From positions 1 to 64,000 of the forward strand of contig MCFE01000064.1 in NCBI GenBank assembly GCA_002104905.1: a stretch of 64,000 nt of DNA, written 5' to 3'. The DNA is from Basidiobolus meristosporus CBS 931.73. Lineage: Eukaryota; Basidiobolomycota; Basidiobolomycetes; Basidiobolales; Basidiobolaceae. The notes below the pieces were generated by a model, which worked only from the letters and a program-made list of their open reading frames with translations, searched no databases and was not told the DNA's origin. A program made the position numbers and the translations under genes. This document shows positions 22,593 to 64,000 of this stretch, in pieces. The number at the start of each line of letters is the position of its first letter. Positions within the stretch are counted from its first letter, which is position 1.

Positions 22593-22941
22593 TGTTGTAA
22601 AAATTTGTATTTCCACCTAAATATTCACCTAACTTAGTCACTTAGATCATTACCTTCAAATCCTAGAGAATACTGACCAAATTCCTTGTTGGGATTTACT
22701 TAGAATATTTTCACCAAAATACCAGGTACCCAGAACATGAAAATTCTCAAAGTTGTCCAAACAGCCCCAAACTTTGCACACATGTTCTTGGGACCTTCCT
22801 TAGCCTATTCTACATGTTTGTTATGCCAAGACCAGGTAAAAGTATAAATACTACTTTTACATTCAATAAATCATTAAGTGAAAACCACATAATCTACTTG
22901 TCCTCCCAATCACTTCCAATATCTCCAAGACTCTTACAACA
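22593..22941 (+). repeat. Copia 5' LTR
   Basis: 349 bp, TGTTGTAAAAATTTG to CTCTTACAACA. The promoter-like AGTATAAATACTAC block is near 22840. Confidence 0.92.
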
Positions 22942-22953
22942 GGTTATGAGCCC
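22942..22953 (+). promoter_or_regulatory. Primer binding site: half initiator-Met tRNA type
   Basis: GGTTATGAGCCC follows the 5' LTR directly. It is complementary to the anticodon stem-loop of eukaryotic initiator tRNA-Met (GGGCTCATAACC), not to the tRNA 3' end. Drosophila copia and yeast Ty5 prime from a cleaved half-tRNA in this way. The first possible gag ATG (22946) lies inside this site. Confidence 0.8.
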
Positions 22954-44674: not shown

Positions 44675-47167
44675 GGTCTATTCAATAACTAGGTGATATT
44701 TCGTAAGTTCACGCAAGGGCGAACAAGTGTCTGAGGAGAGATAGGAAAATTCCCGTATCTTTGATAGGCAGCGATGGAACTTCCATGAACCTGGTCTAAC
44801 TACCTTCGTTCAGGGCATCCGGGAGATACCTCTACCCGAGTGCCACATCGATTACCGAATTGGCAATCATCTCTACAAATATCCAGTTTCGTCTTTCCAA
44901 TCGGTGCTTCATTCCTCGGATATCCACTCCGATTATTCTGCGTTGATCTATTACGGAACCGGCGTGACACGTGTCCCAATCGATCAGGGATTATCGAGCC
45001 AACCCATTCAGGTGGCTGCGGTGTTTCCATCCCCCAACCATAGCATTATCTCATGATATGGTGGATTCTGTAGCGGCAAAGATGAGTGCTACATGGTTGA
45101 ATTGGATATATACAACTACTTGCCATAGATTTTCAGAATCACATGAACATTTAGCTTTGCCATTGATGATTAATCCAAGAACTCGAACTGGAGCTCCTGC
45201 ATTAGTTGTAGAGACATCCCGTGCTATGGACTTGTTCAAAGTTATGTTCACACACTCTATGAGTATTAATAATCGGCCTGATGTGGCTCTAAGCAGCTAT
45301 TTCACGCATTATCCCAGTGTACATCGAAGCTATAGCATTGCCTAGCTTATTCAATCCATCAACATATCAGGTCTATAGCATCAAGCCTGTGTAAAAGGGG
45401 TTTGCGATTGTTGCAGAGAATTATTTTGGCACCTAATTATTCCTCTCTTAAACATAGTGCTTTTTAGTAATAATCTTAATTTAGACTGAATTTTGTATGA
45501 TGTCTACTAATTCTTAGAAATAGGGAAAATCTAAAGCAATGGAAGTTTCCAATGTCTTCTAAGGGACCCCAGACTTTGCACAAAACTTCCTGCAACTTTT
45601 CTCAAACCGTTTTAATCCTTTGGCGAAGCCAAATTTCTAATGCCATTTTCAACAGTAATAGCTATTGAGTAACAAGTAGAGTGTGCCATTACTAATTCTA
45701 TTCACCCAGACTTTTTGCTGGTATAACCCAGCAGAAAATTGTGATTGGAATTTTCTTGGGCTTATTAACAATCTTATGATGGGATTCCATCCCAAGTACA
45801 GTTATCATTTTTTTACTACTTATAGCTCTTCAGAAAGCTAGTAGTTGGACTGCATGCCTTGTATAGTGCATGTGATACCTATTCATTTATGCTTGAATCA
45901 ATTTTGAAATGTTATAGGCTCAGTTCAAGTGGAATTTCTGCTGATTTTCTGGTATTTTGAGGGTGTCCATCATGAATTTCCAGAAGTGAAGATTTACTAT
46001 TCATCCACACTGATTAACATTTCACTTGCCTTAAAATTCCATGCTCGTAGCTTGTGAGATAGTAAGCGGCCAGGTTTCATAATTTGAATAAAGAAATAAT
46101 GTGCGCAGGTATAAATCTTGCAAAGCAAATCAGTAGGCCAGGATCCGGTCATTCATATATTTGGATAGAGTGCTTTGTTTATTACGAAAATGATGTCTAT
46201 TCACATGGTATTAATTTAGTAAGATGCTTAATTCTTGACACAACACATATACTGAAAGTTACCAAAAATTCGAAACACATCCAAAAGTTTCACACTTTGT
46301 AACTACTGTCAAAACATTCCACAACACATTCTCGCCATCACTTTTACAAAGCACAAACACATATGTAAATACTTTATTTTAACTCAATAGGTGTACGTTT
46401 AAAAATATACTCTCTTCACTGCCAGGTTCCCACCGCGACTTTCAGCATCCTATTTATAGTAATATACTCAAATGTAGTCCCTGATCCTAATGTTGCGAGT
46501 TTAACTCAAGTTGGGGTATTAGAAATCTCCATGTGGCTTTCGGACGATATTTACGAAAAATTTCATATATTCTCATCTGTAAGGCATTGGATGTGGCTGC
46601 ACAAGGATTGTAAAAGAAAAGAGTATTCTAAGCAGAAGTTAATGTAGCTATAAATAAAGCTGCACTGTGTGCTGTGCCCGTGAAGAATGGTTAAGTCTAT
46701 TGCACGCAAACCAATATTGCTTATTTAATATGTCGGTTGAATTCAAAAATTTGTTATACTGTCAAAGGTGGATGATCACCAGGGTCTGGGGTATGTCAAG
46801 GAGTACAAGGAACACATCCATAGAGCGCTATTTCCATCCAAATCGTCATTGTCCCTACTAGTTTACCGGCGCTGATCTCGACACTAATCGGTATGACGTT
46901 CGAAGGTTAGTCCAACTTACCATGTGTAGATACTGATAATACTCCATTGATAAATGTCTTAGCAAGGGAAGGACTAGCTGTGCTATTTCCGCAACATCTG
47001 TTACACTCGTTGCTCTCAGTACTCCCAACCTGGGGCCTATTAGCCTATTCTCACCATTCGATTGTAACCACCATCCTAGACCATCCGAGAAATAGAAATA
47101 GGTTCAAAAGCCTAGAAGGGTCAAAGGATGGAAAATACAATTGGCATATATTCGAGATGGATGCCCC
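44675..47167. other. Intergenic DNA between the housekeeping block and the secreted-protein array
   Basis: 2.5 kb with no supported gene. The frame at 44971-45345 has no domain or exon structure. A stretch at about 45408-45660 begins TGTTGCAGAGAATT and contains GGGACCCCAGACTTTGCACA, loosely like the copia LTR, and may be a very old LTR. Confidence 0.45.
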
Positions 47168-47188
47168 ATTCTTGGCTACTAAGCCACC

Positions 47189-47195
47189 TATAAAG
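47189..47195 (+). promoter_or_regulatory. TATA box, gene A1
   Basis: TATAAAG 96 bp before the ATG; the spacing is identical in gene A2. Confidence 0.65.
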
Positions 47196-47284
47196 ATCAC
47201 TGTGAATAAAAGCATACCTCCATCCCTTTCGAGTTTACCATCACCAGTCCAATCTTCTATTCTGCATTGCTACAATACGCTGCT

Positions 47285-47704
47285 ATGTTCATGTCTACTC
47301 TTCTTTCTCTTGCTATGGTGGGTGTCAGCTTCTCAGCTCCGTTTCCCTACATCTGTAAACCAAACGTGGAGATCGAGGGAACTAGGGTGACGAATGCTGG
47401 ATGCAGTATCAAACTCGAGCTGGCTATTTCCTCCGGAATTCTGAGCACAGTCAGCTCACTCGATGTCAAGTTGTACAAAGGCAACTCACCTCGTGGGATT
47501 CTGGTGCATCAGGTACAGACCAAAGGTACACAAGCCGGCCAAGGAAACGTGGAGATACTTTTCCCCGTCAGCAGTGAATACCTAGGAAATAATACGTTGA
47601 TTGTGACCGAGACATCGCGCAAACAAACACAATGCCCACGAGTGTATGGAACGCACGGGTTGCGGGTGCTTCCAGCTAGTGGTGATGTCATGTGTATATT
47701 TTAG
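47285..47704 (+). CDS. 139-aa four-cysteine secreted protein, subtype A (A1)
   Basis: First gene of a tandem family. Single exon, 139 residues. The signal peptide is MFMSTLLSLAMVGVSFSA, with cleavage likely before PFPYIC. The mature protein has exactly four cysteines at 24, 40, 117 and 137, likely two disulphides. Its alternating hydrophobic pattern suggests a small beta-sandwich (SIKLELAIS; SLDVKLYKGNS; NTLIVTE). Landmarks shared by the family are NAGC, LDVKLY, VHQVQTK, FPV, LGNNTL, CPxxYGxH and DVMCIF-stop. I know no function for this family; secretion, cysteine content and array growth make it an effector or surface-protein candidate. The start at 47285 is chosen because all paralogues begin at the same place; a longer frame opens upstream only with TTG. 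Confidence 0.92.
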   Translation: MFMSTLLSLAMVGVSFSAPFPYICKPNVEIEGTRVTNAGCSIKLELAISSGILSTVSSLDVKLYKGNSPRGILVHQVQTKGTQAGQGNVEILFPVSSEYLGNNTLIVTETSRKQTQCPRVYGTHGLRVLPASGDVMCIF

Positions 47705-48714
47705 GCAATCTGTAAGAAACATGACAGCAAGTAAAGTAATCACATCGGGCAGACATTATGAATAAACAAATTGACACCAGTTCTTTTAGCTCAAAAAGAT
47801 CTATAATCGTTATATCCCTGATACGAGGGTATGCGTGCACAGATAGCTCATATTAGAATTACCATTAATAGGAGGCTTTCTTATTGTATTCACTATACAT
47901 AGAGTTCCGCAGGTGTGAATATTGATACGGATATTGCTGCACCCTTAATAGTAGATGTAGGCCGCGAGTGTACTTATGAGGTTAAAGGTTGCTGACTGGT
48001 AGTATAAGTATCCACAGTCTGGGGACGGTTCACAGTCGTTTCAATATCTTTATTTAGGTACCGAAATATATCGGCGAATCAGCATAACAGTCAGGACTAC
48101 ATTTGACTTCAGGGTCAACAATAAGAAAAAGCCACAATCTATCCATGAATGATGTGAATGAAAAGTCCTGTGAAGCATACGATCATGAGAGCACTGAAGC
48201 TACATTCACTAACAGGTATTGGCCACACAGGTCAAGTCTGATGAAGATCATGTACCGATGCACACAAACGATTATATGCTAGAGGTACTCAACGATCAAT
48301 AAATATCGTTCCCTTGCCATGCTTCAGATGGTTCTACGAGTATATTGCAGTCCTGGATCAAAGGCGAATGGAGTGACAAATGTATGCGTGGGATATCCCA
48401 ATAATGTGGCATTGCTGGTGGTGTAGCTAGCTTTGTATTCCCTGGCGTAGATGCCAGCAATCCAGGTTCTTTGGAGGCATGTCAATAACTAATCCTGGAA
48501 ATAGGACACTACAGGTGTTGAGTATTGACGTTGACATCGCTACACCCTGCATAGGGTGCATAGATCGCTAGCACCCTTACAAGGTTAGAGGTTGCAGGTT
48601 GGTGGTACAAGTATCCACAATCTGGGGTCGACTCACGGTTGATTCAGGATGTAAATTGAGGCATCGAAAAATATTAACAAACCAGAACCACAGTCAAGAC
48701 CACATTTAACTTGA
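47705..48714. other. Inter-gene DNA with cassette remnants
   Basis: No intact gene. It contains a GTATCCACAGTCTGGGGAC-type segment near 48010 that recurs through the array, and at 48147-48246 the start of the decayed upstream ORF (MNDVNEKSCEAY, then frame loss). From 48247 it is the beginning of the 2.27-kb duplicated block. Confidence 0.6.
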
Positions 48715-48925
48715 GGGCCAACATCTGATGCTGATCAACTGCTTGATCGGTTCTGTGGCTTAGAATCATCCGGACATCTGGCAGGCTTAGTGAGTGACTA
48801 CAGTAAGTACATCGGTTCTCGACTCTACCATGCCTTTGCTCGCACAAGCAACCAGTTACTGGCCATCAACGACGAGATTGCCCATCTCTTGGGGACAGTA
48901 AGCGGATATTCCAGAGAGCCTTAGA
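48715..48925 (+). pseudogene. Decayed upstream ORF of the cassette (copy before B1)
   Basis: The plus-strand reading contains DQLLDRFCGLESSGHL, then AFARTSNQLLAINDE and a stop after SREP. It is homologous to the open frame at 51795-52118 but is shortened at the start and carries disruptions. Confidence 0.55.
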
Positions 48926-49039
48926 GGCTCAAGTGGAACATGGTGAGACATTGATGGAATAATGAAGGAATGGAAAGAGATGCCAGGGTCAGATAGATTC
49001 TATTGCGCAATACTACTCGACCACCTGTATTTTGTAAAT

Positions 49040-49047
49040 TATAAAAG
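49040..49047 (+). promoter_or_regulatory. TATA box, gene B1
   Basis: TATAAAAG exactly 80 bp before the ATG, as in B2, D and E1. A CATCGTTAT element lies about 30 bp before the ATG. Confidence 0.75.
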
Positions 49048-49119
49048 CACATTCCACTTCCACCTATTTGGACAAGGAACACCACTTGCATCGTTATCCC
49101 ATTACAACTGAATCTCCAA

Positions 49120-49539
49120 ATGTACGTATCAACACTACTCTCCTTAGTGATGGTTGGTGCAACCCTCTCCGCTCCACTTCCCAAGGTATGCAAGCCAAAC
49201 GTAGTGACTGAGGGGCCTAGCACGATCAACGCAGGATGTAAGATGAGGCTACAGCTTACTTTCCCTGCTCACTCTCTGAGTGCAGTGAGCACACTGAATG
49301 TGAGGTTCTATCAGGAGAATTCTCGTCATGGAACTCTGGTGCACCAAGTGAAAGCTAAGGAGGTGAAAAGCGACCAAGCGACCATTGAAGCCATGTTCCC
49401 AGTCGGGGGGAATTACTTGGGAAATGGAACATTGATAGTTACCGAAGCAGCTAGCAGGAATATCAAGTGCCCAGCAATATATGGCATTCATGAATTATCC
49501 ATACTTCCTAGTATCCCTGATGTGATGTGCACTTTTTAA
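49120..49539 (+). CDS. 139-aa four-cysteine secreted protein, subtype B (B1)
   Basis: Single exon, 139 residues. The signal peptide MYVSTLLSLVMVGATLSA is followed by PLPKVCKPNV. Cysteines are at 24, 40, 117 and 137. It is distinguished from other subtypes by LNVRFYQENSRHGTL in place of LDVKLYP, by FPVGGNYLG, and by the ending DVMCTF. It shares the same 80-bp TATA-to-ATG spacing as subtypes D and E. Its near-identical duplicate is B2 at 57859, differing by only two residues (E31K and T35A), both in the segment between the first two cysteines. Confidence 0.92.
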   Translation: MYVSTLLSLVMVGATLSAPLPKVCKPNVVTEGPSTINAGCKMRLQLTFPAHSLSAVSTLNVRFYQENSRHGTLVHQVKAKEVKSDQATIEAMFPVGGNYLGNGTLIVTEAASRNIKCPAIYGIHELSILPSIPDVMCTF

Positions 49540-50110
49540 CAACGAATCGACATACCATGAATGGTCAAACATTAGAATCTCCCAAAGATCAATAAATAGC
49601 ATCATTTTGCTGCTCCCGAAGTTGGAGCGAAGATAATATCTTGTAGGGAATAGTAGATATTTTGAGTGACAGTTGTGTGAGAACATCATCAAGAAACGTA
49701 GCATTATAGATCTTCCAGTTAATGGATCATCCACTTGCAAATGAGTCAATACCGGTGCAGTTATCGTCAAATACGAATTACCTATTGATTTTGCAACAGT
49801 TTTTTCTGCGCATGCAAAAATTCCCACTCCAGAAACATGTCTCTTAGATTCGAGTGTAGATAGAATTGAGGGTACACATGAGTTGAAATTAAGCTCTGAT
49901 TTTTTTTACCCCATGTGCAGTATTTTAATTGCTGAATGCGTAGCGTGTTGAGCACATGGTGTCCAGGACTCACAGGAAGTCGAATTGTCGAATAGTATGT
50001 ATCAGTATATTCACTTTGGGGACAGTTTCAAAGCGAGGTGTATAACGAATACAAACTTTATTAGTCGTAAAATGAGTTACGCGCATATAGCCGCACCTGA
50101 TATTGATCAC

Positions 50111-50118
50111 TATAAAAG
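50111..50118 (+). promoter_or_regulatory. TATA box, gene C1
   Basis: TATAAAAG 76 bp before the ATG; C2 and C3 have the same spacing. Confidence 0.75.
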
Positions 50119-50186
50119 TATGCTCTCACCTCGCACTATCTCATCACAAGCAACGCTTTCAACTGAACCTTTTCAACAATTCAGAA

Positions 50187-50606
50187 ATGATCGTGACCTC
50201 TCTAGTCGCTCTTGCCATGGTGGGCTCCACCCTCGCGGCTCCATTGCCCAAGATATGTAAGCAGAACGTGGCACTCCAGGCACCCAAGGAGATCCAAGCT
50301 GGATGCAGCATGAGACTTCGAATCTCCATTCCTGCTCATGTACTGAGCACCGTTGAGTCGCTGGATGTGAAGCTCTACCCTGGAAAATCTCACCATGGAG
50401 CTTTGGTGCACCAAATTCAGACGAAGGATATCCTCAGCAACCAGGAGAATATCGACATGATGTTCCCAGTGACCAGTAAATTCTTAGGAAGCAATACGTT
50501 GCTACTCACCGAAACATCCCATAGTGGAATGGGTTGTCCAACAATCTATGGGGCACAGGGGCTGCTTGTTCTCCCAAGGAAAGCTGATGTGATGTGCACC
50601 TTCTAA
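50187..50606 (+). CDS. 139-aa four-cysteine secreted protein, subtype C (C1)
   Basis: Single exon, 139 residues, start fixed by alignment with C2 and C3 at MIVTSLVALAMVGSTLAA. The mature part begins PLPKICKQNV. Cysteines are at 24, 40, 117 and 137. Subtype C differs from the others by KEIQAGCSMRLRISIPAH, by LYPGKSHHGALVHQ, and by MMFPVTSKFLGSNTL. The C-terminus reads VLPRKADVMCTF. It is followed by a decayed paralogue ending at 51543, an arrangement repeated after C2 and C3. Confidence 0.92.
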   Translation: MIVTSLVALAMVGSTLAAPLPKICKQNVALQAPKEIQAGCSMRLRISIPAHVLSTVESLDVKLYPGKSHHGALVHQIQTKDILSNQENIDMMFPVTSKFLGSNTLLLTETSHSGMGCPTIYGAQGLLVLPRKADVMCTF

Positions 50607-51429
50607 AAAGAATTACGGCAATTTCAAAGAAATAAAATACGACTATAGTGTCTTTTGTTTTATCAAAGCAATCTTTTCAAGCGCTTCGTATATCCAGCAC
50701 AAGCAAAAGTACAACAATTGATTGAAGTCGAATATTGCACCACACCGATAGTGACGTTAATCCCAACTACATTATATGAATTATCATGCCAGTGAGTAGC
50801 CGATTATCCTAGCATTCTAGGGGTATCAGAAATTTTCGTCGTATATAGTGTACCTGAGTTATGGCAGCAACTTACAATACTACTCTCAGACATTCGCGTC
50901 TCCCCTCAGCTTACCTTACAATACGGGGTTACTATTGATCAACCCACTTGTAGCTATTTGGTGTTACAGATTTTCACATCCGGTGGGCGGGTCTCGTTTT
51001 GTTCGAATTCGAGGCCGAATATACCTCATGAAATCCCAAATGTCGCGTAGAGTGTACTCGATGGCTTGTTACGTCACATAGCTGATTCTCGGTAATACAA
51101 AAACCACATGAAAGGTCCTCATTGAAATTGATTAAAAAATGATATGTACATTCCGCTTGGCGGTTCCAGATCATTTCTGCCTTAGGATACTCCTAGAGTA
51201 TGGGTCTTTGGTTCCTGTTTAGTGGTACAGGCATTGACATTTTAGGGAAAGGGCAAGCTTCCACTAGCACATATATAGGGCTTAGATGAGGTGGATAAGA
51301 GTTTAAAAAGGAATCTAAACAGCATGTGGATATGTTTACCAAATCCTAAAACCGCATTACTATTTGATGTTATACTATAGAAGACTAAGAATTCAGAAAA
51401 ATATCAAAACTGTGTTCGTGGGGACCAGA
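50607..51429. other. Inter-gene DNA after C1
   Basis: No gene. From about 51060 it resembles 60085-60300 and 63600-63800 (a CATTCCGC, then GTTCCAGATCATTNCTGCC block), the upstream part of the decayed unit that follows each subtype C gene. Confidence 0.55.
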
Positions 51430-51543
51430 AAGTTCTTTGGCAGCGGCACCATAGTATTTACCGGAACATAGCAGGCAGATGCCCAGCGATTCCGGTGGTT
51501 CTTTGTGCAGTCGAGATGAGAGGGTGCGATGTGTATCTTTTAG
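51430..51543 (+). pseudogene. Decayed paralogue after C1
   Basis: The translation starts KFFGSGTIVFTGT and hits a stop where the intact genes have TETS, then loses the frame and ends MCIF-stop. It corresponds to the last ~38 residues of the 139-aa family; the N-terminal two thirds are unrecognisable. Confidence 0.75.
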
Positions 51544-51794
51544 ACTCGACATAGGACCAGAAATAAAGATACAAGCTATATAAGGATCAACAAAGATATT
51601 ACTATACCAGACGTGATTTATTGAACATCATTCAGTTCTGAATCAGAGGCTATTGGAGTGACAGCTGCAGATATGAAATGTACTCATATCGATCCACCCT
51701 GAATAGCAGTGCTCAAATATATTAGCAAATCAGAGCAGCAGTCAGATCTACAATCAACTTCTGGACTCACAAGAATAACAATGGATTGCAACCA

Positions 51795-52118
51795 ATGATA
51801 ATATACTTTAGTAGTCCTGCGAAATATGCTATCCGTGAGAACACTGAAGTTGGGGTCATTGCTACATCGCCAAAAGATTGGCTTCAAGGGTTGGGTGGGT
51901 CTGATGTTGATCTACTACTTGATCGGTTCTGTGGCTTGAACTCATCCGGGCATTTAACATTCCTAGTGAGCAGCCGCAATAAATTCATACGCACTCGACC
52001 CTGCCACGTCTTTGCTCCAGCAAACAATAAGTTACTATTTATTTACGACGGGAAAGCCCATTTCTTGGGGGCATTAAACAGAAAGTCTAGAGACTCTTAT
52101 GATCCCATTGCTCAATAA
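51795..52118 (+). CDS. Upstream cassette ORF, 107 aa, best-preserved copy
   Basis: An ATG-initiated frame of 107 residues ending just before gene D's promoter. Decayed relatives lie upstream of B1, A2, E1, the E/D remnant, B2 and E2. Recognisable segments are GVIATSPKDWLQGLGGSDVD, LLDRFCGLNSSGHL, ACxNN-like FAPANNKLLFIYDGKAHFLG. There is no signal peptide or membrane helix and no family I know. It is either an ancestral second gene of the cassette, still open here, or an exon that has lost its partners. Expression is uncertain. Confidence 0.4.
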   Translation: MIIYFSSPAKYAIRENTEVGVIATSPKDWLQGLGGSDVDLLLDRFCGLNSSGHLTFLVSSRNKFIRTRPCHVFAPANNKLLFIYDGKAHFLGALNRKSRDSYDPIAQ

Positions 52119-52143
52119 TACGAAGCCGCTTACTTTTCCAGAA

Positions 52144-52151
52144 TATAAAAG
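52144..52151 (+). promoter_or_regulatory. TATA box, gene D
   Basis: TATAAAAG exactly 80 bp before the ATG, with the CATCGTTAT element in between. Confidence 0.75.
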
Positions 52152-52223
52152 CACATTTCGTTTCTATCTACAAGGACAAAAAGCACCCCCTTCATCGTTA
52201 TCCTATTGCAGCTGAATCCCCAA

Positions 52224-52643
52224 ATGTACGTATCAACACTACTTTGCTTAGTGATGGTTGGTGCCACTCTCTCCACTCCACTTCCCCACATCTGCAAGCC
52301 AAATGTAGTGGCCGAGGGGCCTAGCACGATCAATGCAGGATGCAAGATGAAGCTACAGTTCACTGTCCCTGCTCATATTCTGAGCACCGTAACCGAGTTG
52401 GATGTGAAGCTGTATCCAGACGGTTCTCACTATGGAGCTCTTGTGGACCAAGTGAAGACCGAGGATGTACAAAGTGGCCAACAGAGCCTTGAAGCTATGT
52501 TTACAGTCAGTGGGAAACACCTGGGAAAATCAACTCTGGTACTGACCGAGTCATCTCATAAGGAGACTGGGTGTCCAGTAGTATATGGCGTTCACGAGGT
52601 TGTCGTACTCCCAAGTAACTCAGATGTGATGTGCATCTTCTAA
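52224..52643 (+). CDS. 139-aa four-cysteine secreted protein, subtype D
   Basis: Single exon, 139 residues, the only intact member of its subtype. The signal peptide MYVSTLLCLVMVGATLST contains an extra cysteine at residue 8, inside the part that is removed. The mature part is PLPHICKPNVVAEGPSTINA, with cysteines at 24, 40, 117 and 137. It lies between B and E in sequence: the N-terminal half is B-like, the C-terminal half (GKHLGKSTLVLTESSH; VYGVHEV) is E-like. Confidence 0.92.
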   Translation: MYVSTLLCLVMVGATLSTPLPHICKPNVVAEGPSTINAGCKMKLQFTVPAHILSTVTELDVKLYPDGSHYGALVDQVKTEDVQSGQQSLEAMFTVSGKHLGKSTLVLTESSHKETGCPVVYGVHEVVVLPSNSDVMCIF

Positions 52644-53546
52644 ATCCAACATGGGCACACATAATGGAAAATATACTGTAGATACTTCAAGGCCAATAAA
52701 TATTGCCACCTCGCGATACTTCGAATGATTTTACAAATCTTTTGATATGCAGTATCCTAAAATATCAGTACGACAGTTGATAAGGTGAATTATTCCAACA
52801 AAAACGTGGCAAAGGGTTAAGTATGGCGAACTACGTCTTTGTTCGCAGAGTCCAAGTCAAAATTTTCAAGTTATTAAAGGTTCTTTAATACAGATAAATT
52901 GAAAGCGATATAATAGTATCCTTCAACCATTCAACCATGTTATTATTATTGTTACACATCAGTTAGTGGCGCATTTTTTCACATTCTACAAACAAATTCT
53001 CAACTGAGGTAACAATGTAATACAACTAATCGGTGTAACAGTCATGTTCATGGTTGGACTGTTGGCAGCTATGCCAGTAGCTTTATTGAATTGTCCAAAA
53101 ATATCAGCTGAAAATACTGAAGTTGTAGTCATTGCTGCATCATCAAAATATCTGCTGCATGGGTTGGGTGAGTCTGATGTCGATCAATCACTTGATCGAC
53201 TCGGTAACTTGAGCTCATCCTGAAAATAAACCCCAGGATACCACGGGGAAACAAACCTGCCTAAGGGGCCTAGTTGTGACACCGCTGCCAGGTTTTCTGA
53301 TAAATTCGTTAATAACACTACAACTTGCTGGGATCAGTTCTCTTAGGGGCTGTGGGTATTTTGCCAGTGGATCCTCCTCAAGAAGCTAGATGTAATTGAA
53401 CACATTATAGTCGATAAATTGTAACACCTGTGTAAGACTTTCGGATGCCACTCGCTAAAGACTTTTCGATGAAAAAATTAGGCCCGAAGGTCTAGAAACA
53501 TCGATGGAAGGAAAGGATACAGCGATATATGCATGATGGATACTCT
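52644..53546. other. Inter-gene DNA with a cassette remnant
   Basis: No intact gene. At 53100-53222 a decayed copy of the upstream ORF reads SAENTEVVVIAASSKYLLHG and GESDVDQSLDRLGNLSSS before a TGA. Confidence 0.6.
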
Positions 53547-53567
53547 ATTCTTGGCCACTAAGCCACC

Positions 53568-53574
53568 TATAAAG
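53568..53574 (+). promoter_or_regulatory. TATA box, gene A2
   Basis: TATAAAG 96 bp before the ATG, as in A1. Confidence 0.65.
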
Positions 53575-53663
53575 ATCACTGTGAATAAAAGCATACCTCC
53601 ATCCCTTTCGAGTTTACCATCATCAGTCCAATCTCCTATTTTGCATTGCTACAATACGCTGCT

Positions 53664-54083
53664 ATGTTCATGTCTACTCTTCTTTCTCTTGCTATGGTGG
53701 GTGTCAGCTTCTCAGCTCCGTTTCCCTACATCTGTAAACCAAACGTGGAGATCGAGGGAACTAGGGTGACGAATGCTGGATGCAGTATCAAACTCGAGCT
53801 GGCTATTTCCTCCGGAATTCTGAGCACAGTCAGCTCACTCGATGTCAAGTTGTACAAAGGTAACTCACCTCGTGGGATTCTGGTGCATCAGGTACAGACC
53901 AAAGGTACACAAGCCGGCCAAGGAAACGTGGAGATACTTTTCCCCGTCGGCAGCGAATACCTAGGAAATAATACGTTGATTGTGACCGAGACATCGCGCA
54001 AACAAACACAATGCCCACGAGTGTATGGAACGCACGGGTTGCGGGTGCTTCCAGCTAGTGGTGATGTCATGTGTATATTTTAG
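53664..54083 (+). CDS. 139-aa four-cysteine secreted protein, subtype A (A2)
   Basis: Single exon, 139 residues, a near-exact duplicate of A1. The proteins differ at residue 96 only (Ser in A1, Gly in A2). Signal peptide and cysteine positions are as in A1. The duplicated unit carries its own promoter and 3' flank, so both copies are likely regulated alike. Confidence 0.92.
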   Translation: MFMSTLLSLAMVGVSFSAPFPYICKPNVEIEGTRVTNAGCSIKLELAISSGILSTVSSLDVKLYKGNSPRGILVHQVQTKGTQAGQGNVEILFPVGSEYLGNNTLIVTETSRKQTQCPRVYGTHGLRVLPASGDVMCIF

Positions 54084-54149
54084 GCAATCTGTAAGCAACA
54101 TGACAGCAAGTAAAGTAATCACATCGGGCAGACATTATGAATAAACAAA

Positions 54150-54939
54150 GCTACAGCAGACCTTTAAACTCTACAAGCCGAGTGAATATTCCACAGAACC
54201 TTAAAGACCCAAGTGGAAAGTGGCTAGTGCCACCCTATCCGCTCCACTTTCCAACATCTATAAGCCAAAAAGGTAGCGAGCGTGGGGCCTAACACGATCG
54301 ATTCTGGTGCAATCTGGTGGCAATGATATTCGTATTCTGCGGATATATCTTGGGTGTTTCAATTTGCAAGAACCATATATTGAATGCCATGCACTAAACC
54401 GGATTGCTATTAGAAGATGTTGCATGTCTAGAACATCTTTGGTGTTCGATAAAATTTAAGTTACGTTTGGAATTTTAGATTTTTCCATAGTTCATCGCCT
54501 GGATACGATAATTTCGAGGCAGCAAAGTACACTTCCCATTCTCACTGTAACTGAATAATGTTACGCTCGTCGAAGGCTAATGCATTTTGTCGCATTCCTA
54601 CTCTTGTGTTGATGCCATGAATATTTTATAGTTGGGTATTCAGGTGGAAACTTTCTCAAAAAAACGTGGCAATGACCGAGGTGTAACCATTTGCATTTCC
54701 TATCCATCGGAAATTTCTATAAATAACCTTCAAACGAAAAAATAAAGTATTTTAATGATTCAATGTCGTGAGTATTCTGACTGCGCCCTGGTTAGTGGTA
54801 TACGCTCTAGGGACAGTCCACAATCGATAAGGTATCTAGCTAAAAAAAGATCTCCACAACAAATAGGAATAAGAGCCGGGCATACAATCAACTTCTGGGC
54901 CCACAACAGGAATAATGTCATATTACATACATTAATAAT
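54150..54939. other. Inter-gene DNA after A2
   Basis: Contains the N-terminal remnant at 54218-54310 and otherwise no gene. Around 54790-54900 it resembles the GTATCCAC...GGGGAC segment that precedes other units. Confidence 0.55.
54218..54310 (+). pseudogene. N-terminal remnant of a B/D-type paralogue
   Basis: The translation gives VASATLSAPLSNIYKP, then a stop and a frame change, then VASVGPNTIDSGA. It matches the end of the signal peptide through the second cysteine of subtypes B and D. The first cysteine is replaced by Tyr. Confidence 0.7.
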
Positions 54940-55210
54940 ATGAATGAAATGGCATACGAAATACGTATGAGAAATCAAGTTGCGGTAGCTTCTACATCGC
55001 CGGAATGTTTACTGCAAAGGTTGCGAGAATGTGATGTTGATCAATTACTTGACCGGTCCTGTAACTTGGAATCGTCCAATCGCGTCGAATCCATTGGTTC
55101 TCGCCACAGCCATTTCTTCACTTTAACACACAACCAGTTACTGTGACTCAACAACGGAATCACCCATCTCTTGGAGGCAATAAGTAGAGATTTTAGGGAG
55201 CCTTAGAGGC
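54940..55210 (+). pseudogene. Decayed upstream ORF of the cassette (copy before E1)
   Basis: Starts at an ATG and stays open for 68 codons (STSPECLLQRLRECDVDQLL, DRSCNLESSNR) before a stop at 55144; the homology continues after it (NNGITHLLEAISRDFREP). It is a relative of the frame at 51795-52118. Confidence 0.55.
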
Positions 55211-55316
55211 TCTAGTGGAATACGGTGAGACATCAAGGGAATCCCTGAAGAAATGATAATGAAAGATAGGTAGATTCTACGGATCGGTATTACCTATTCA
55301 CTTGTATTTTCACAAA

Positions 55317-55324
55317 TATAAAAG
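55317..55324 (+). promoter_or_regulatory. TATA box, gene E1
   Basis: TATAAAAG exactly 80 bp before the ATG. Confidence 0.75.
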
Positions 55325-55396
55325 TGACTCTCATTTTCATTTGTTGGGACAAGAAACACGACTTTCATCGTTATTCGATTGCACCAAAATCTCCAA

Positions 55397-55816
55397 ATGT
55401 ACATTTCAACACTATTCTCCTTGGCAATGGCTGGAGCCTCCCTCTCCGCTCCACTCCCCCAGGTCTGTAAGCTAAATGTGGTTAGCCAGGGACCTGAAGT
55501 TATCAACGTAGGATGTAAGATAAAGCTGCAGCTCACTGTCCCTGCGCATATTCTCAGTGCAGTAGACACATTGGATATAAAGTTGTATCCAAGTGGGTCT
55601 CGTCGAGGTACGCTTGCGCATCAAGTGAATACCAAGGATGTGCAAAGTGGCCAGCAGAGCATCGAAGCCGTGTTCCCGATCAGTGGGAGACACCTGGGCA
55701 AATCAACGTTGGTGCTGACCGAATCACCCTATCAAGGGTTAGGGTGCCCAGCAGTGTATGGTGTTCATGAGGTGACCGTGCTTCCCAGTAGCCCAGATGT
55801 GATGTGTATTCTGTAG
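55397..55816 (+). CDS. 139-aa four-cysteine secreted protein, subtype E (E1)
   Basis: Single exon, 139 residues. The signal peptide MYISTLFSLAMAGASLSA precedes PLPQVCKLNV. Cysteines are at 24, 40, 117 and 137. Subtype E has LDIKLYPSGSRRGTL, VNTKDVQSGQQSIEAVFPIS and GRHLGKSTLVLTESPYQG. Residues 41-139 are almost identical to E2 (61366) while the first 40 differ at many positions, so the two halves have different histories. Confidence 0.92.
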   Translation: MYISTLFSLAMAGASLSAPLPQVCKLNVVSQGPEVINVGCKIKLQLTVPAHILSAVDTLDIKLYPSGSRRGTLAHQVNTKDVQSGQQSIEAVFPISGRHLGKSTLVLTESPYQGLGCPAVYGVHEVTVLPSSPDVMCIL

Positions 55817-56389
55817 ATTCAATCCCGTTCACGACAAGTAATTATACGAAAAGAACATTCACAAATCAATAAACGCCACTCTTTTTCTGGCCTCATAAGT
55901 ATGTTTGTAATGTTCATGGTAGTGATGTAGGTCTGGGCAAGAAACGCAGTACCGGACTTGGCCTAACCAATATAGTTTCGGTACATCAATGTAACTTCGA
56001 TTTAGCTCGCCTATGTCAGCCATGTCTAGATTTTAGGTTTCACATCTGATTTTTAATGGTTGAATAGTAGTACAAATATCCACATTCTGGGGTCATGTCA
56101 ATCTTGTTTCGATCAAAAGCAATATGAATATATTTTAAATGCATCAATATTCAACCGTGTAAATAGAAGGTAAGGGGAAATCAATCCAGTTGGATACTGA
56201 CAATGACCAGTTACCGTTGAGAATTCTGATCTGATGGAGGGCTCGGAATTCCCTACTGAAAGACTAAAGGAACGGATACACATTAACACTGGGCAATCAG
56301 CAAATGAAGATATTGAACGATATAAAAGTAGCAGACGGGGCCATATTTAATTTCCAGACCAACAAAAAGAACAAAATCACAATCCTTCT
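55817..56389. other. Inter-gene DNA after E1
   Basis: No gene. It includes the E-type 3' flank shared with E2 and a diverged copy of the TATCCACATTCTGGGGTCA segment near 56080. Confidence 0.55.
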
Positions 56390-56700
56390 ATAAGTGATGT
56401 GAATGATGCGCCTTGCGAGATATACTACCTGTGAGAGTATTGTAACTGTGGTACCTTGCTACCTCACCAAGGGCTTGACAGTAAGGGTTAGATTGGTCTT
56501 ATGAAGATCAGCTACTTCATCAGTCCTGTGGCTCGAAATCATCCGGACATCTAAACAGGCCTAGTGAGGAATTGTAACAAATATATTGGTTCTCGACCCT
56601 ACCATGCTTTTGCTCCTACAAGCATCCAGTTACTGGCCATCAACGACGGGAATACCCATTTCCTGGGGCAGCAAGGGGAATTTGGGTGGAGCTCAAAGGC
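56390..56700 (+). pseudogene. Decayed upstream ORF of the cassette (copy before the E/D remnant)
   Basis: Homologous along its length to 48715-48925 and 57455-57665 (CTGTGGCTCGAAATCATCCG; ACCATGCTTTTGCTC; AGTTACTGGCCATCAACGAC) but with several frameshifts. Confidence 0.5.
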
Positions 56701-56814
56701 GCAAGTGGAATAGGCCGAAACACTGATGGAATTTCAAAGAAATGCGAATAAAATGCCAGGGTCAAATAGATCCTGTTGTTCAATACTACTCAACCACCTG
56801 CGTTTTCCAAAATA

Positions 56815-56977
56815 CAAATCACATTCAATTGTATTTCCAGTCAGTGGGAAACACCTGGGCAAATCAACTCCGGTACTGACCGAATCATTACATAACGATA
56901 TCGGATGCCCCTCAGTGTATGGCATTCATGAGGTAGCCGTACTCCCAAGTAGCTCAGGTGTGATGTGCATCCTTTAG
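56815..56977 (+). pseudogene. Internally deleted D/E-type paralogue
   Basis: The region just upstream (56726-56814) is a normal cassette promoter zone, but the sequence jumps from the post-TATA leader directly into codon ~93 of the family (FPVSGKHLGKSTPVLTESLH, then CPSVYGIHEVAVLPSS). The signal peptide and first two cysteines are missing. The end MCIL-stop and the 3' flank are intact. A frame is open from 56726 but would have no signal peptide. Confidence 0.8.
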
Positions 56978-57454
56978 ATCATGTACCGATGTACACAAAC
57001 GATTATATGCTAGAGGTACTCAACGATCAATAAATATCGTTCCCTTGCCATGCTTCAGATGGTTCTACGAGTATATTGCAGTCCTGGATCAAAGACGAAC
57101 GGAGTGACAAATGTATGCGTGGGATATCCCAATAGTGTGGCATTGCTGGTGGTGTAGCTAGCTTTGTATTCCCTGGCGTAGATGCCAGCAATCCAGGTTC
57201 TTTGGAGGCATGTCAATAACTAATCCTGGAAATAGGGCACTACAGGTGTTGAGTATTGACGTTGACATCGCTACACCCTGCATAGGGTGCATAGATCGCT
57301 AGCACCCTTACAAGGTTAGAGGTTGCAGGTTGGTGGTTGGTGGTACAAGTATCCACAATCTGGGGACGACTCACGGTTGATTCAGGATGTAAATTGAGGC
57401 ACCGAAAAATATTAACAAACCAGAACCACAGTCAAGACCACATTTAGCTTGAGG

Positions 57455-57665
57455 GCCAACATCTGATGCTGATCAACTGCTTGATCGGTTCTGTGGCTTA
57501 GAATCATCCGGACATCTGAGCAGGCTTAGTGAGTGACTACAGTAAGTACATCGGTTCTCGATTCTACCATGCCTTTGCTCGCACAAGCAACCAGTTACTG
57601 GCCATCAACGACGAGATTGCCCATCTCTTGGGGACAGTAAGCGGATATTCCAGAGAGCCTTAGAG
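57455..57665 (+). pseudogene. Decayed upstream ORF of the cassette (copy before B2)
   Basis: A near-identical copy of 48715-48925 within the duplicated block. Confidence 0.55.
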
Positions 57666-57778
57666 GCTCAAGTGGAACATGGTGAGACATTGATGGAATA
57701 ATGAAGGAATGGAAAGAGATGTCAGGGTCAGATAGATTCTATTGCGCAATACTACTCGGCCACCTGTACTTTGTAAAT

Positions 57779-57786
57779 TATAAAAG
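57779..57786 (+). promoter_or_regulatory. TATA box, gene B2
   Basis: TATAAAAG exactly 80 bp before the ATG. Confidence 0.75.
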
Positions 57787-57858
57787 CACATTCCACTTCC
57801 ACCTATTTGGACAAGGAACACCACTTGCATCGTTATCCCATTACAACTGAATCTCCAA

Positions 57859-58278
57859 ATGTACGTATCAACATTACTCTCCTTAGTGATGGTTGGTGCA
57901 ACCCTCTCCGCTCCACTTCCCAAGGTATGCAAGCCAAACGTAGTGACCAAGGGGCCTAGCGCGATCAACGCAGGATGCAAGATGAGGCTACAGCTTACTT
58001 TCCCTGCTCACTCTCTGAGTGCAGTGAGCACACTGAATGTGAGGTTCTATCAGGAGAATTCTCGTCATGGAACTCTGGTGCACCAAGTGAAAGCTAAGGA
58101 AGTGAAAAGCGACCAAGCGACCATTGAAGCCATGTTCCCAGTCGGGGGGAATTACTTGGGAAATGGAACATTGATAGTTACCGAAGCAGCTAGCAGGAAT
58201 ATCAAGTGCCCAGCAATATATGGCATTCATGAATTATCCATACTTCCTAGTATCCCTGATGTGATGTGCACTTTTTAA
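57859..58278 (+). CDS. 139-aa four-cysteine secreted protein, subtype B (B2)
   Basis: Single exon, 139 residues, duplicate of B1. Only two residues differ (Lys at 31 and Ala at 35). The signal peptide, cysteines and 80-bp promoter spacing are unchanged. Confidence 0.92.
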   Translation: MYVSTLLSLVMVGATLSAPLPKVCKPNVVTKGPSAINAGCKMRLQLTFPAHSLSAVSTLNVRFYQENSRHGTLVHQVKAKEVKSDQATIEAMFPVGGNYLGNGTLIVTEAASRNIKCPAIYGIHELSILPSIPDVMCTF

Positions 58279-58848
58279 CCACGAATCGACATACCATGAA
58301 TGGTCAAACATTAGAATCTCCCAAAGATCAATAAATAGCATCATTTTGCTGCTCCCGAAGTTGGAGCGAAGATAATATCTTGTAGGGAATAGTAGATATT
58401 TTGAGTGACAGTTGTGTGAGAACATCATCAAGAAACGTAGCATTATAGATCTTCCAGTTAATGGATCATCCACTTGCAAATGAGTCAATACCGGTGCAGT
58501 TATCGTCAAATACGAATTACCTATTGATTTTGCAACAGTTTTTTCTGTGCATGCAAAAATTCCTATTCCAGAAACATGTCTCTTAGATTCGAGTGTAGAT
58601 AGAATTGAGGGTACACATGAGTTGAAATTAAGCTCTGATTTTTTTACCCCATGTGCAGTATTTTAATTGCTGAATGCGTAGCGTGTTGAGCACATGGTGT
58701 CCAGGACTCACAGGAAGTCGAATTGTCGAATAGTATGTATCAGTATATTCACTTTGGGGACAGTTTCAAAGCGAGGTGTATAACGAATACAAACTTTATT
58801 AATCGTAAAATGAGTTACGCACATATAGCCGCACCTGATATTGATCAC

Positions 58849-58856
58849 TATAAAAG
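58849..58856 (+). promoter_or_regulatory. TATA box, gene C2
   Basis: TATAAAAG 76 bp before the ATG. Confidence 0.75.
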
Positions 58857-58924
58857 TATGCTCTCACCTCCCACTATCTCATCACAAGCAACGCTTTCAA
58901 CTGAAACTTTTCAACAATTCAGCA

Positions 58925-59344
58925 ATGATCGTGACCTCTCTAGTCGCTCTTGCCATGGTGGGCTCCACCCTCGCGGCTCCATTGCCCAAGATATGTAAGC
59001 AGAACGTTGCACTCCAGGCACCCAAGGAGATCCAAGCTGGATGCAGCATGAGACTTCGAATCTCCATTCCTGCTCATGTACTGAGCACCGTTGAGTCGCT
59101 GGATGTGAAGCTCTACCCTGGAAAATCTCACCATGGAGCTTTGGTGCACCGAGTTCAAACGAAGGATATCCTCAGCAACCAGGAGAATATCGACATGATG
59201 TTCCCAGTGACCAGTAAATTCTTGGGAAGCAATACGTTGCTACTCACCGAAACATCCCACAATGGAATGAGTTGTCCGATAATTTATGGGACACAGGAGC
59301 TAGTTGTTCGTCCAAGAAGAGCCGATGTGATGTGCGCTTTTTAA
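58925..59344 (+). CDS. 139-aa four-cysteine secreted protein, subtype C (C2, mosaic)
   Basis: Single exon, 139 residues. The first ~110 codons match C1 almost perfectly, with the change HQIQ to HRVQ. The last ~28 codons then differ at about ten residues (HNGMSCPIIYG, TQELVVRPRRADVMCAF). The 3' flank (AAATTGACTAG) resembles that of C3, not C1. All four cysteines are kept. The gene therefore spans the end of the 2.28-kb duplicated block and looks like a recombinant. Confidence 0.92.
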   Translation: MIVTSLVALAMVGSTLAAPLPKICKQNVALQAPKEIQAGCSMRLRISIPAHVLSTVESLDVKLYPGKSHHGALVHRVQTKDILSNQENIDMMFPVTSKFLGSNTLLLTETSHNGMSCPIIYGTQELVVRPRRADVMCAF

Positions 59345-60314
59345 AATTGACTAGAAAAATCAAAATACCTTTCACTATGATGTTCTATTTGAGTATGACC
59401 GTATGAAACCATACTATTCTGTAAGCTAAAAATAGCATCGCATTCTGGCTTATTTGATTCAGCATAGTATTTGAAATGCTTTGACCTAAAATACTAAATA
59501 ACGCCTTTCACACTAGGCTTTTGAAACCATACTCTGAAATCGTATACATTTCTTGGTGGTCATGGAAAATTGTCGCGTTTTGAGGACAATTCCCATCATA
59601 GGACTTTTGTCAAGTTTAAGCGGTGAGTATGCTCAATAGTTCGGAAAATGTGGAGGCTGTGTTCTGAATGATGCTTTGCCCAACCGAAACTTCTCGGTTT
59701 CACATCGGGTGTTCAACTTTAATGAATGACTAAGACTTCAAAATTGAAATCCACCCTGAACTCATTCGACAGGATCGTGATCCAGATTTATTGCGACCTG
59801 GTTTATTTGATGTAACGGCATGTTACTGCTTATTTTCATGTTTCGATCCTTTTATAACAGGCAAGATTAAAATAGCCATTAATTATTACTGCCTCACATT
59901 GATACAATTTTACCAACACGATTTGGTCCAGCTTCCTGGATTAATCGCATTGATTACCTCAACTTTCTGGCTTCGGATATGTACTTGGATATTAGTAAAA
60001 ATGGGATCATATTAGTCACACACAGAATGGTTTTCGTGTTTTGAAAATAATATAAGATGGTTGGATTTTTATCATCGTGTGCAACATACGCGATGGCTTA
60101 CTAACTTTTCTAGCTGATGCTCGGGGCTATATACATAGTTCCATTTAGCAGTTCCAGATCCTTGCTACCTTGGGCTACTAGAAGACCATGCGTCTTTAGC
60201 TCTTGCGGAGTGGTACACGTATCTAATAATTACACTATAGGAAGTAAATTAAAATTTGAAAGGTATTCCACACACAACTGGGCTAGATACACAAACTTCC
60301 GTGATTGTTTATTC
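59345..60314. other. Inter-gene DNA after C2
   Basis: No gene supported. It resembles the region after C3 (62914-63800) through much of its length, showing that the C gene and its downstream DNA were duplicated together. A plus-strand frame at 59791-60015 has no support. Confidence 0.5.
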
Positions 60315-60525
60315 CTGCGCATATTCTGGATACTTTCGGATCTTCAGATATGATGTTACGTCCTGCCTACTGTCATCCCGGGATCTTGGTAAATTATGCT
60401 AGAGCAAAGGAAATCTTTGGCAACCAAGTGAATATCAACGTAATGAAGTTGGGTGCCTAGCGATTTATGGAGTTGAGAAGATATTTGTGCAGCCAAGCAG
60501 ACCGGATGCGGTGTGTATTTTTTAG
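60315..60525 (+). pseudogene. Decayed paralogue after C2
   Basis: Pieces of the family are readable with frame changes between them: IPAHIL, then AKEIFGNQVNINVM, then GCLAIYGVEKIFVQPSRPDA and VCIF-stop. The signal peptide region is gone. Confidence 0.75.
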
Positions 60526-61286
60526 ACTCATCATTGGGTGAAATATAAAGATGCGCACCATAAAAAGATCAATATCATTTTATTGCAATACTTCCAATGA
60601 TTTTATGACCTTGGCATTTTCGAATTTCAGGTTATTAGAGTGATTAGTGGTAAGGTGGAATTCCTAAGGAACGTGGCATTTGTGTTGGTGTAACAAAGTT
60701 TGTATTTATTCATGAAGATGGCAGTGATCTCGATGAATTGGAGGCGTATCAGTATGAAACCAATTACTAAACACGAATACAAAGCAATCCAAGAATTGAA
60801 TAAAGGCATTGATATCGCTCCAACCTGAACATTGTGTGTGTGTGTGTGTGCTAACAATACCCTAATGAGGCTAAAACCTGTTGCTTGATGATGCTATGAT
60901 CCACAATATGGGGACGGTCCGCACTTGATTATGTATCCTGGTTGAAGTATCGAAATATATCAGCAATTCAGAGTAATAGACTAGATTGTAATTGAACTCT
61001 GGGAGCAAAATAGATGCATTCCCAAATTGTATCCATTAATGATATGAATGCCATGCTAATAATGTTGCCTAGGGGGACACTAAAGCCACGGTTTTTGTTA
61101 CATTCCCTAAGGTGCTAAATACAAAAATATCATCCGTTCTAGACCCAGCCATCCCCTAGCTCCAGAAAACAACCAGTTATATCCCATCGGCGACGGATTT
61201 AAACATTTCGTGGGGGCATAAGCTGAAGGTCTAGAGACCCTTATAATCCAAATACTCCGTATCACAAAGTCACTAATTTTGGATGA
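60526..61286. other. Inter-gene DNA before E2
   Basis: Contains the cassette segment with ATCCACAATATGGGGACGG near 60900 and, at about 61030-61235, a heavily decayed copy of the upstream ORF (blocks matching GCTCCAGAAAACAACCAGTTAT). No intact gene. Confidence 0.55.
60833..60850. repeat. (TG)9 microsatellite
   Basis: Nine TG units between the decayed paralogue and gene E2. Confidence 0.85.
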
Positions 61287-61294
61287 TATAAAAG
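61287..61294 (+). promoter_or_regulatory. TATA box, gene E2
   Basis: TATAAAAG 79 bp before the ATG, one base shorter than in E1. Confidence 0.75.
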
Positions 61295-61365
61295 TGCATT
61301 TGGTGTCTACCCACAAGGGCAAGCAACACGACTTTCATCATTATTTTATGCAACTGGATCTCCGA

Positions 61366-61785
61366 ATGTACATCTCAACATTGCTCTCCCTGGTGCTGGT
61401 TGGAGTCACTCTCTCCGCTCCACTTCCCCAGGTCTGCAAGTCAAATGCGGTTAGCCAGGGACCTAAAGCTATCAATGTAGGATGTAAGATAAAGCTGCAG
61501 CTCACTGTCCCTGCGCATATTCTCAGTGCAGTAGACACATTGGATATAAAGTTATATCCAAGTGGGTCTCGTCGAGGTACGCTTGTGCATCAAGTGAATA
61601 CCAAGGATGTGCAAAGTGGCCAGCAGAGCATCGAAGCCGTGTTCCCGATCAGTGGGAGACACCTGGGCAAATCAACGTTGGTGCTGACCGAATCACCCTA
61701 TCAAGGGATAGGGTGCCCAGCAGTGTATGGTGTTCATGAGGTGACAGTGCTTCCCAGTAGCCCAGATGTGATGTGTATTCTGTAG
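61366..61785 (+). CDS. 139-aa four-cysteine secreted protein, subtype E (E2)
   Basis: Single exon, 139 residues. The signal peptide MYISTLLSLVLVGVTLSA and the segment to residue 40 (KSNAVSQGPKAINVGC) differ clearly from E1, while residues 41-139 are nearly identical to it. Cysteines are at 24, 40, 117 and 137. The longer frame from 61279 uses a TTG codon and is not needed. Confidence 0.92.
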   Translation: MYISTLLSLVLVGVTLSAPLPQVCKSNAVSQGPKAINVGCKIKLQLTVPAHILSAVDTLDIKLYPSGSRRGTLVHQVNTKDVQSGQQSIEAVFPISGRHLGKSTLVLTESPYQGIGCPAVYGVHEVTVLPSSPDVMCIL

Positions 61786-62417
61786 ATTCAATCCCGTTCA
61801 CGACAAGTAATTATACGAAAAGAATATTCACAAATCAATAAACTTCCCTATTTTCCTGTCAAAAGTGTGTTTGCAGTGTCATTTAATCGAGAATAACACC
61901 TGATCATAACCATGGTAGTGATGTAGGTCTTGGCAAGAGATATAGCATCTGACTTGACCTAATTAGTATAATAGTATATCTATTTCACAAATCTCTATCG
62001 AATGGAAATAGAGAGTAAGAGATAATCGAACTGATGAGACATATCGAAGTCCGCTCAGAACACAACGTGCGATTTAGCGTAGCATCACTTTATGTAGGAG
62101 TTCTCGGATCTCCATATTTCTTCTACTGCAATGACACGAGCCCAATATTTTCTAGCTAGTTTTTTCTCACTAATATGGCATTTGCTCGCAAATGCGAGAA
62201 TATTAATACAGTTACCATCACACTCAAATTATTTAATGGAATTGCTGAATTTTTGTTATTTACTCTTATCACACAATAGGAGTTCCACATATATAACCGC
62301 ACCTATTATCGATCGCTATAGATCAGAGGCTGTTGCAAAGCATATTGTATATTGAATACGTGTTTTATTCATCAGAAAACGAGTTCCACACATATAACCG
62401 TACCTGATATTGATCAC
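61786..62417. other. Inter-gene DNA between E2 and C3
   Basis: The first part is the E-type 3' flank shared with E1. A short direct repeat (GAGTTCCACA, ATATAACCG, ACCT) occurs at 62280 and 62380 just upstream of C3. No gene. Confidence 0.55.
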
Positions 62418-62425
62418 TATAAAAG
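62418..62425 (+). promoter_or_regulatory. TATA box, gene C3
   Basis: TATAAAAG 76 bp before the ATG. Confidence 0.75.
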
Positions 62426-62493
62426 TATGCTCTCATTCCCGACTATTTCATCACAAGAAACGCTTTCAACTGAGCCTTTTCAATAATTCCATA

Positions 62494-62913
62494 ATGATCG
62501 TGACCTCTCTAGTCGCTCTTGCCATGGTGGGCTCCACTCTCGCGGCTCCATTGCCCAAGGTATGCAAGCAGAATGTAGCACTCCAGGCACCCAAGGAGAT
62601 CCAAGCTGGATGCAGCATGAGACTTCGAATCTCCATTCCTGCTCATGCACTGAGCACCGTTGAGTCGCTGGATGTGAAGCTTTACCCTGGAAAATCTCAC
62701 CATGGAGCTTTGGTGCACCAAGTTCAAACGAAGGATATCCCCAGCAACCAGGAGAATATCGACATGATGTTCCCAGTGACCAGTAAATTCTTGGGAAGCA
62801 ATACGTTGATACTCACCGAAACATCCCACAGTGGAATTGGTTGTCCAACAGTCTATGGTACACAGGGGCTGCTTGTTCTCCCAAGGAAAGCTGATATGAT
62901 GTGCGTCTTCTAA
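62494..62913 (+). CDS. 139-aa four-cysteine secreted protein, subtype C (C3)
   Basis: Single exon, 139 residues. It differs from C1 by a handful of residues (KVCKQ, PAHALS, TKDIPS, HSGIGCPTVYG, ADMMCVF). The final motif reads DMMC instead of the DVMC found in all other intact members. Signal peptide and cysteines are conserved. Confidence 0.92.
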   Translation: MIVTSLVALAMVGSTLAAPLPKVCKQNVALQAPKEIQAGCSMRLRISIPAHALSTVESLDVKLYPGKSHHGALVHQVQTKDIPSNQENIDMMFPVTSKFLGSNTLILTETSHSGIGCPTVYGTQGLLVLPRKADMMCVF

Positions 62914-63900
62914 AATTGACTAGATTATTCCAAGAAAAATAAAAACACATTTCATGATGGAGCTCTTTCTGAGATTGACCATTTGAAATCACACTGTTCT
63001 GTAAGCTCGAAATAGCATTGTATTCGACTAAAACGTAGTATTCAAAGTGCTTTAACCTAAGATACTTAATCGTGTCATTTTTCCGGATTTAATTTGAAAT
63101 CGGAAGAAATTTTCTGAATGCTGTGAAAAGTTCGTGTTTCGAGTTATAATTCCAATCATCGTGGGTTTTAGCTCATAATGCTCTAGCATTTAGTCCTAAT
63201 CCAGGAGATATTGATAGTATGTTCTACGTAAGCTTGTGCATGTTGCTTTCCGACACATCCGCAATGAAGTTGAATGCCATCATTAATCGTGAACTTCGCG
63301 TTAATAATTGAAATGCCACCTAAACAAGTTAGGTACGTGATCCTCATATTGCAACCTGGTTTATTGCTGTAGCGCGTGATACATTCTTTTTTTGTGTTTC
63401 AATTTTTGACACAGGTCTAGCTAAATAGCTATTGATTGACAATGAATACTGTAACATCGAAAGTGGCACTTACCTAAACCATCTTTACCAACACATCGTA
63501 ATCCAGCTATCTGGATTGATCTTATTGGCAAGTAATAGGTCATCCTATCATTCTAAGGAGGGTTGCTAAAGGTTATTAAAGGTCGCTTGTTGTGCAACGT
63601 TCTCGATGGTTTGTTAATATCCCCAGTTGATGCTTGGGGATATCATAGCCATATGGAAGGAACACATTCAATTTTTCGAAAATATACAATAATACGCTTA
63701 CATTCCGCGTAATAGTTTTAGATCATTACTGCCTTTAGTTGCTCCAAATCCATGTGCCTTTAGTTCTTGCCTGATGGTACAAGTATCCACCTTATGGGGG
63801 ACAGAAATGGTGCTTTAGTCTGACACTGTGGCTTAGATGAAGGAAATTGAAATTTGAATGGCATTCCGCATAGTATGGGGTAAGATATGCCCAAGTTCTC
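62914..63900. other. Inter-gene DNA after C3
   Basis: Homologous to the region after C2, including the block that precedes the decayed paralogue. No intact gene. Confidence 0.5.
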
Positions 63901-64000
63901 GATTCTTTATTTGCACTCGTATTCGGGATACTTTTGGCTCTCTGTATGTGATCTTATATCCCAACAACTCTCATCACGGGACCTTGGCCCCTTCGAATCT
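63901..64000 (+). pseudogene. Decayed paralogue after C3, cut by the window end
   Basis: The translation TRIRDTFGSLYVILYPNNSH followed by HGTLAP matches residues ~50-75 of the family (IPAHVLS; LDVKLYPGKSHHGAL). No signal peptide is recognisable upstream. The array evidently continues beyond the window. Confidence 0.65.

Follow-up and report, generated by a model that had tools for sequence, protein, structure and literature searches.

The window analysed here comprises the first 64,000 nucleotides (nt) of contig MCFE01000064.1 (C913) of Basidiobolus meristosporus CBS 931.73 and its right-hand end is occupied by a tandem array of intronless genes, each encoding an apparently secreted protein of 139 amino acids (aa) with four cysteines. 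This genus-restricted family is real and intact and its members are most likely soluble extracellular binding proteins. The best explanation, which we hold with a probability of roughly 60%, is a family restricted to Basidiobolus whose members are small, secreted and soluble, with a predicted immunoglobulin (Ig)-like fold. The original prediction, made from the window alone, had described at least nine such genes of no named family running off the window edge in a probable rust fungus, and had taken them for an effector or surface-antigen pattern. The dense, apparently secreted four-cysteine family and, as a prediction, the beta-sandwich withstood the analysis. The rust origin did not, and selection on the copies is purifying and not that of an arms race.

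Ten intact copies, each of 139 uninterrupted codons, were found in the window as open reading frames (ORFs):

47285..47704, + strand: copy g1 (subtype A1), 139 aa, with a TATA-like box at -96 and a polyadenylation-type signal 59 nt downstream from the first base of the stop codon
49120..49539, + strand: copy g2 (B1), 139 aa
50187..50606, + strand: copy g3 (C1), 139 aa
52224..52643, + strand: copy g4 (D), 139 aa
53664..54083, + strand: copy g5 (A2), 139 aa, differing from A1 by one residue
55397..55816, + strand: copy g6 (E1), 139 aa
57859..58278, + strand: copy g7 (B2), 139 aa
58925..59344, + strand: copy g8 (C2), 139 aa, almost the same as C1 in codons 1-107 and diverged in codons 108-139, lacking a polyadenylation-type signal within 150 nt
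61366..61785, + strand: copy g9 (E2), 139 aa
62494..62913, + strand: copy g10 (C3), 139 aa

Five further copies start past the window edge, at C913:64647, 66339, 69051, 70797 and 72079, so that the whole contig carries 15 intact copies in a single same-strand array from 47285 to 72498, with spacers of 646-2292 nt. Two of these, g12 and g13, located just past the edge, agree letter for letter with the proteins K493DRAFT_312252 and K493DRAFT_312253 of this strain at NCBI. Genome searches with three copies as queries placed all clear matches in the 89.0-Mb assembly on C913, although distant paralogues may have been missed as only the best candidates were scored. A lone weak match elsewhere, C635:51402 (E 0.5), was discarded since the local ORFs encode no such protein. 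The searches also revealed pieces of further copies between the intact genes:

56822..56971, + strand: residues 89-138 of a further, truncated copy
60296..60522, + strand: decayed piece with stops inside 60296-60478, the remainder weak
63900..63989, + strand: possible piece, weak (E 0.08)

Cysteines at positions 24, 40, 117 and 137 are present in all ten window copies, as originally described, and copy D contains one additional cysteine at position 8, within the signal peptide. The signal peptide, called by inspection of the sequence and not with a predictor, is apparent in all 15 copies: a mostly hydrophobic stretch (residues 5-16) is followed by S or A at position 17 (15/15), A at position 18 (14/15, T in D) and P at position 19 (15/15), and the proteins are apparently secreted. 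Inspection showed neither a serine/threonine (Ser/Thr) stalk or glycosylphosphatidylinositol (GPI)-type tail in any of the 15 copies nor a hydrophobic C-terminal tail in the array copies.

According to NCBI taxonomy the organism belongs to Basidiobolomycota and is no rust. The strain is recorded as isolated from gecko dung in PMC7466969, the title of which describes the genus as an amphibian gastrointestinal symbiont. A single-sequence search retrieved array proteins only (3 clusters of 26 candidates), and when 5.8 billion proteins were searched twice with a profile (E <= 10; 3358 and 5425 candidates), only the array and eight proteins of Basidiobolus ranarum were retrieved, seven in one search and eight in the other; such searches depend on shared 5-residue words and may miss very distant relatives. 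All relatives retrieved belong to Basidiobolus. The B. ranarum proteins are 142-145 aa long and their locus tags (002509-002511; 009737, 009739-009741; 008187) suggest that they too occur in tandem groups. In an unrooted tree of 22 proteins (the 15 array copies and seven of the eight B. ranarum relatives, P0015 being left out) the two species are separated by one branch with support 99/99, the plain readings of which are amplification after the species split or concerted evolution. Among the Basidiobolus papers listed in literature searches, judged by title or opening of the abstract, none dealt with the array family.

The same 22 members were scanned against Pfam to E 10 (the HMMER filters discard most matches above 0.1) and none of them matched a family above its cut-off, while NCBIfam gave nothing for the five copies scanned. 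Structure prediction for the family proposes an Ig-like beta-sandwich, with strands nearly identical to those of an earlier prediction from 10 sequences (predicted local distance difference test score, pLDDT, 70.2). Among the best 50 matches of each fold search against the PDB nearly all were antibody-type chains, together with one CARDB domain (3idu); no chain of the MD-2-related lipid-recognition (ML) or ToxA-like type appeared among these 50, which excludes neither fold, and a viral fold library matched mixed viral proteins, several named Ig-like, and was uninformative. At the sequence level no match to the Immunoglobulin superfamily passed the Pfam cut-off, the best being PF23486 (E 0.019; score 15.5 bits, cut-off 28) in two of 10 members. 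Identity to Immunoglobulin V domains in the PDB is 8-15% among the matches listed; unlike in these domains, strands B and F of the array copies contain no cysteine, and the two kinds of protein would have the predicted fold in common with no sign of common ancestry.

Cysteine contacts C24-C40 and C117-C137, as first suggested, agree less well with the predicted order of strands than the alternative C24-C117 and C40-C137, the pairing that we infer from the predicted topology. The chain would, after removal of the signal peptide near residue 18, fold into the predicted sandwich, in which C24-C117 would connect the N-terminus with the FG loop and C40-C137 the AB turn with the C-terminal tail. The protein would then be released rather than anchored, since hydrophobic C-tail and Ser/Thr stalk are both missing, and its loops may bind an extracellular ligand such as the host gut, prey, a bacterial or fungal surface, or lipid. 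The array may supply dose together with moderately diversified variants.

When comparing the copies pairwise (NG86), the ratio of nonsynonymous to synonymous substitution (dN/dS) could be estimated for 73 of 105 pairs, the other 32 being saturated, and lay between 0.12 and 0.44, exceeding 1 in none of the 73; the proportion of nonsynonymous differences (pN) was above that of synonymous differences (pS) in none of the 105 pairs and the pooled within-subtype pN/pS was 0.31. The highest local value, 1.05, concerns one six-codon loop in subtype E and rests on 8 changes. These pairwise and pooled ratios show purifying selection on the copies, and positive selection among them, as an arms race would imply, was not found. 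All 15 copies have a TATA-like box 61-96 nt upstream of the ATG (background 583 of 11942 windows, array included). Although the copies are not independent of each other, those that diverge most (g13, g14 and g15) have the box as well. A polyadenylation-type signal lies no more than 150 nt after the stop in 13 of 15 copies, the exceptions being C2 and g13. Codon usage is ordinary and the bias of highly expressed genes was not found. Taken together, selection, putative signals and codon usage indicate that each copy is a working gene and a separate unit, and none of them hints at extreme expression or at arms-race evolution. The exact sequence TTGGGGACAGT is found upstream of g2, g3, g7, g8 and g13 (at -231, -171, -231, -171 and -213, respectively), that is in B1, C1, B2, C2 and g13 only (5 of 15 copies, 3 subtypes), and is possibly a shared regulatory element of three subtypes, but shuffled sequences give a similar sharing of 7-mers and 8-mers.

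The following repeats show that the family has expanded through tandem duplication of modules of one or two genes:

48245..50608, + strand: two-gene module B1-C1, recurring at 56976-59346 with 97.5% identity over 2372 columns
56976..59346, + strand: second copy of the module, B2-C2, matching 48245..50608
47146..47770, + strand: A1 with its near flanks, recurring at 53525-54149 (A2) with 97.8% identity over 625 columns

Between C1 and C2, 5 of 321 nt differ in codons 1-107 and 18 of 96 in codons 108-139 (Fisher p 1e-8), and such uneven divergence (p < 2e-5) was found in five of six subtype C pairs, C1-C3 being the exception (p 0.10), but not in the pairs A1-A2, B1-B2, E1-E2 and E2-E3. As synonymous sites in subtype C show the same step (pS 0.09 vs 0.36), segments have likely been exchanged inside genes, rather than constraint relaxed. 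Synonymous differences between subtypes are close to saturated (pS 0.71), which indicates that the subtypes are old.

Several other explanations were weighed against that of Ig-like binding proteins. The one that survives best, though improbable, is that the proteins are divergent ML (Npc2-like) carriers that bind a lipid, such as a sterol, between their two sheets; genes for Npc2 are amplified in arthropods. This is the strongest family lead, as UniRef labels copy g12 'MD-2-relat...'. ML proteins, including Npc2 and the phosphatidylglycerol/phosphatidylinositol (PG-PI) transfer proteins, are likewise small, secreted and disulfide-bonded with an Ig-like sandwich, and a cysteine directly after the signal peptide together with one before the last strand is compatible with their N-to-C disulfide. 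However, g13 is left 'Uncharacte...' by UniRef and the g12 label may be an automatic name. The ML family PF02221 matched none of the 22 members, its three loci in the genome lie outside the array, and hhalign against four ML sequences (a thin profile) gave a probability of 0.3% (E 0.22). The cysteine spacing also differs: three ML proteins of the genome and PDB 6r4m share invariant C54, C116, C126 and C166, against C24, C40, C117 and C137 in the array. ML membership as read from the UniRef label is thus not supported by sequence.

It is slightly less probable that the copies encode matrix proteins or adhesives of spores or of hyphal walls, kept in many copies for dose. Several near-identical copies under purifying selection would suit this, and Basidiobolus makes adhesive capilliconidia, but the Ser/Thr stalk and GPI-type tail are absent and codon usage is unbiased. 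A known fungal secreted beta-sandwich family of many copies, Kre9/KNH (PF10342), was considered and rejected: none of its 76 genome matches (70 above cut-off) is in the array, none of the 22 members matches it by Pfam, and hhalign against four sequences gave a probability of 0.1%. The three longer Kre9 ORFs aligned have tails rich in Ser/Thr, and a hydrophobic stretch closes two of these ORFs, whereas the array has neither. The Kre9/KNH family is large in this genome and some of its loci are clustered (e.g. C791, C372, C578).

Host-directed effectors or surface antigens meeting an animal host are about as doubtful, if marginally more so. The proteins are apparently secreted, cysteine-stabilised, lineage-specific and tandemly amplified, and the genus is described as an amphibian gut symbiont and the strain came from gecko dung, but there is no excess of amino-acid change among the copies and the idea was first proposed for a rust, with the organism mis-identified. 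Small secreted cysteine-containing families of rusts are also tandem and lineage-specific, but belong to a different phylum, and no rust protein was among the matches of the family. Least probable, and indeed quite unlikely, is that an early-diverging gut-dwelling fungus has a diversified, species-specific antibody-fold secreted repertoire recognising gut microbes or host molecules, for which it speaks that the likely exchange in subtype C and the sole place of length change between B. meristosporus and B. ranarum are both at the FG end, which resembles complementarity-determining region 3 (CDR3).

In the remainder of the window a tRNA gene (Rfam RF00005, 55.7 bits) is located at 2630-2711 on the - strand. 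A Ty3/gypsy-type gag-pol ORF of 1494 uninterrupted aa with an apparently chromodomain-like end (9558-14042, +), a Ty1/copia-type gag-pol over three successive ORFs (22814-26476, +) and an ORF resembling GDP-mannose pyrophosphorylase (35106-36050, -) were recognised by eye, and ORFs with SH3 and BAR domains at 43080-44049 (-) are likely exons of a single gene. Downstream of the array, transposase-like and copia-like ORFs (C913:83801-93700, by eye) indicate a region with many mobile elements nearby.

The array represents a further lineage-specific secreted family rather than a new mechanism, although its predicted fold is of interest, and it belongs to a fungus of amphibian guts and reptile dung and not to a crop rust. 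It adds an uncharted genus-restricted secreted family whose predicted fold and disulfide pattern are open to testing. Since Basidiobolus is also an opportunistic pathogen of people, its genus-specific secreted proteins would, if expressed, be potential diagnostic antigens.
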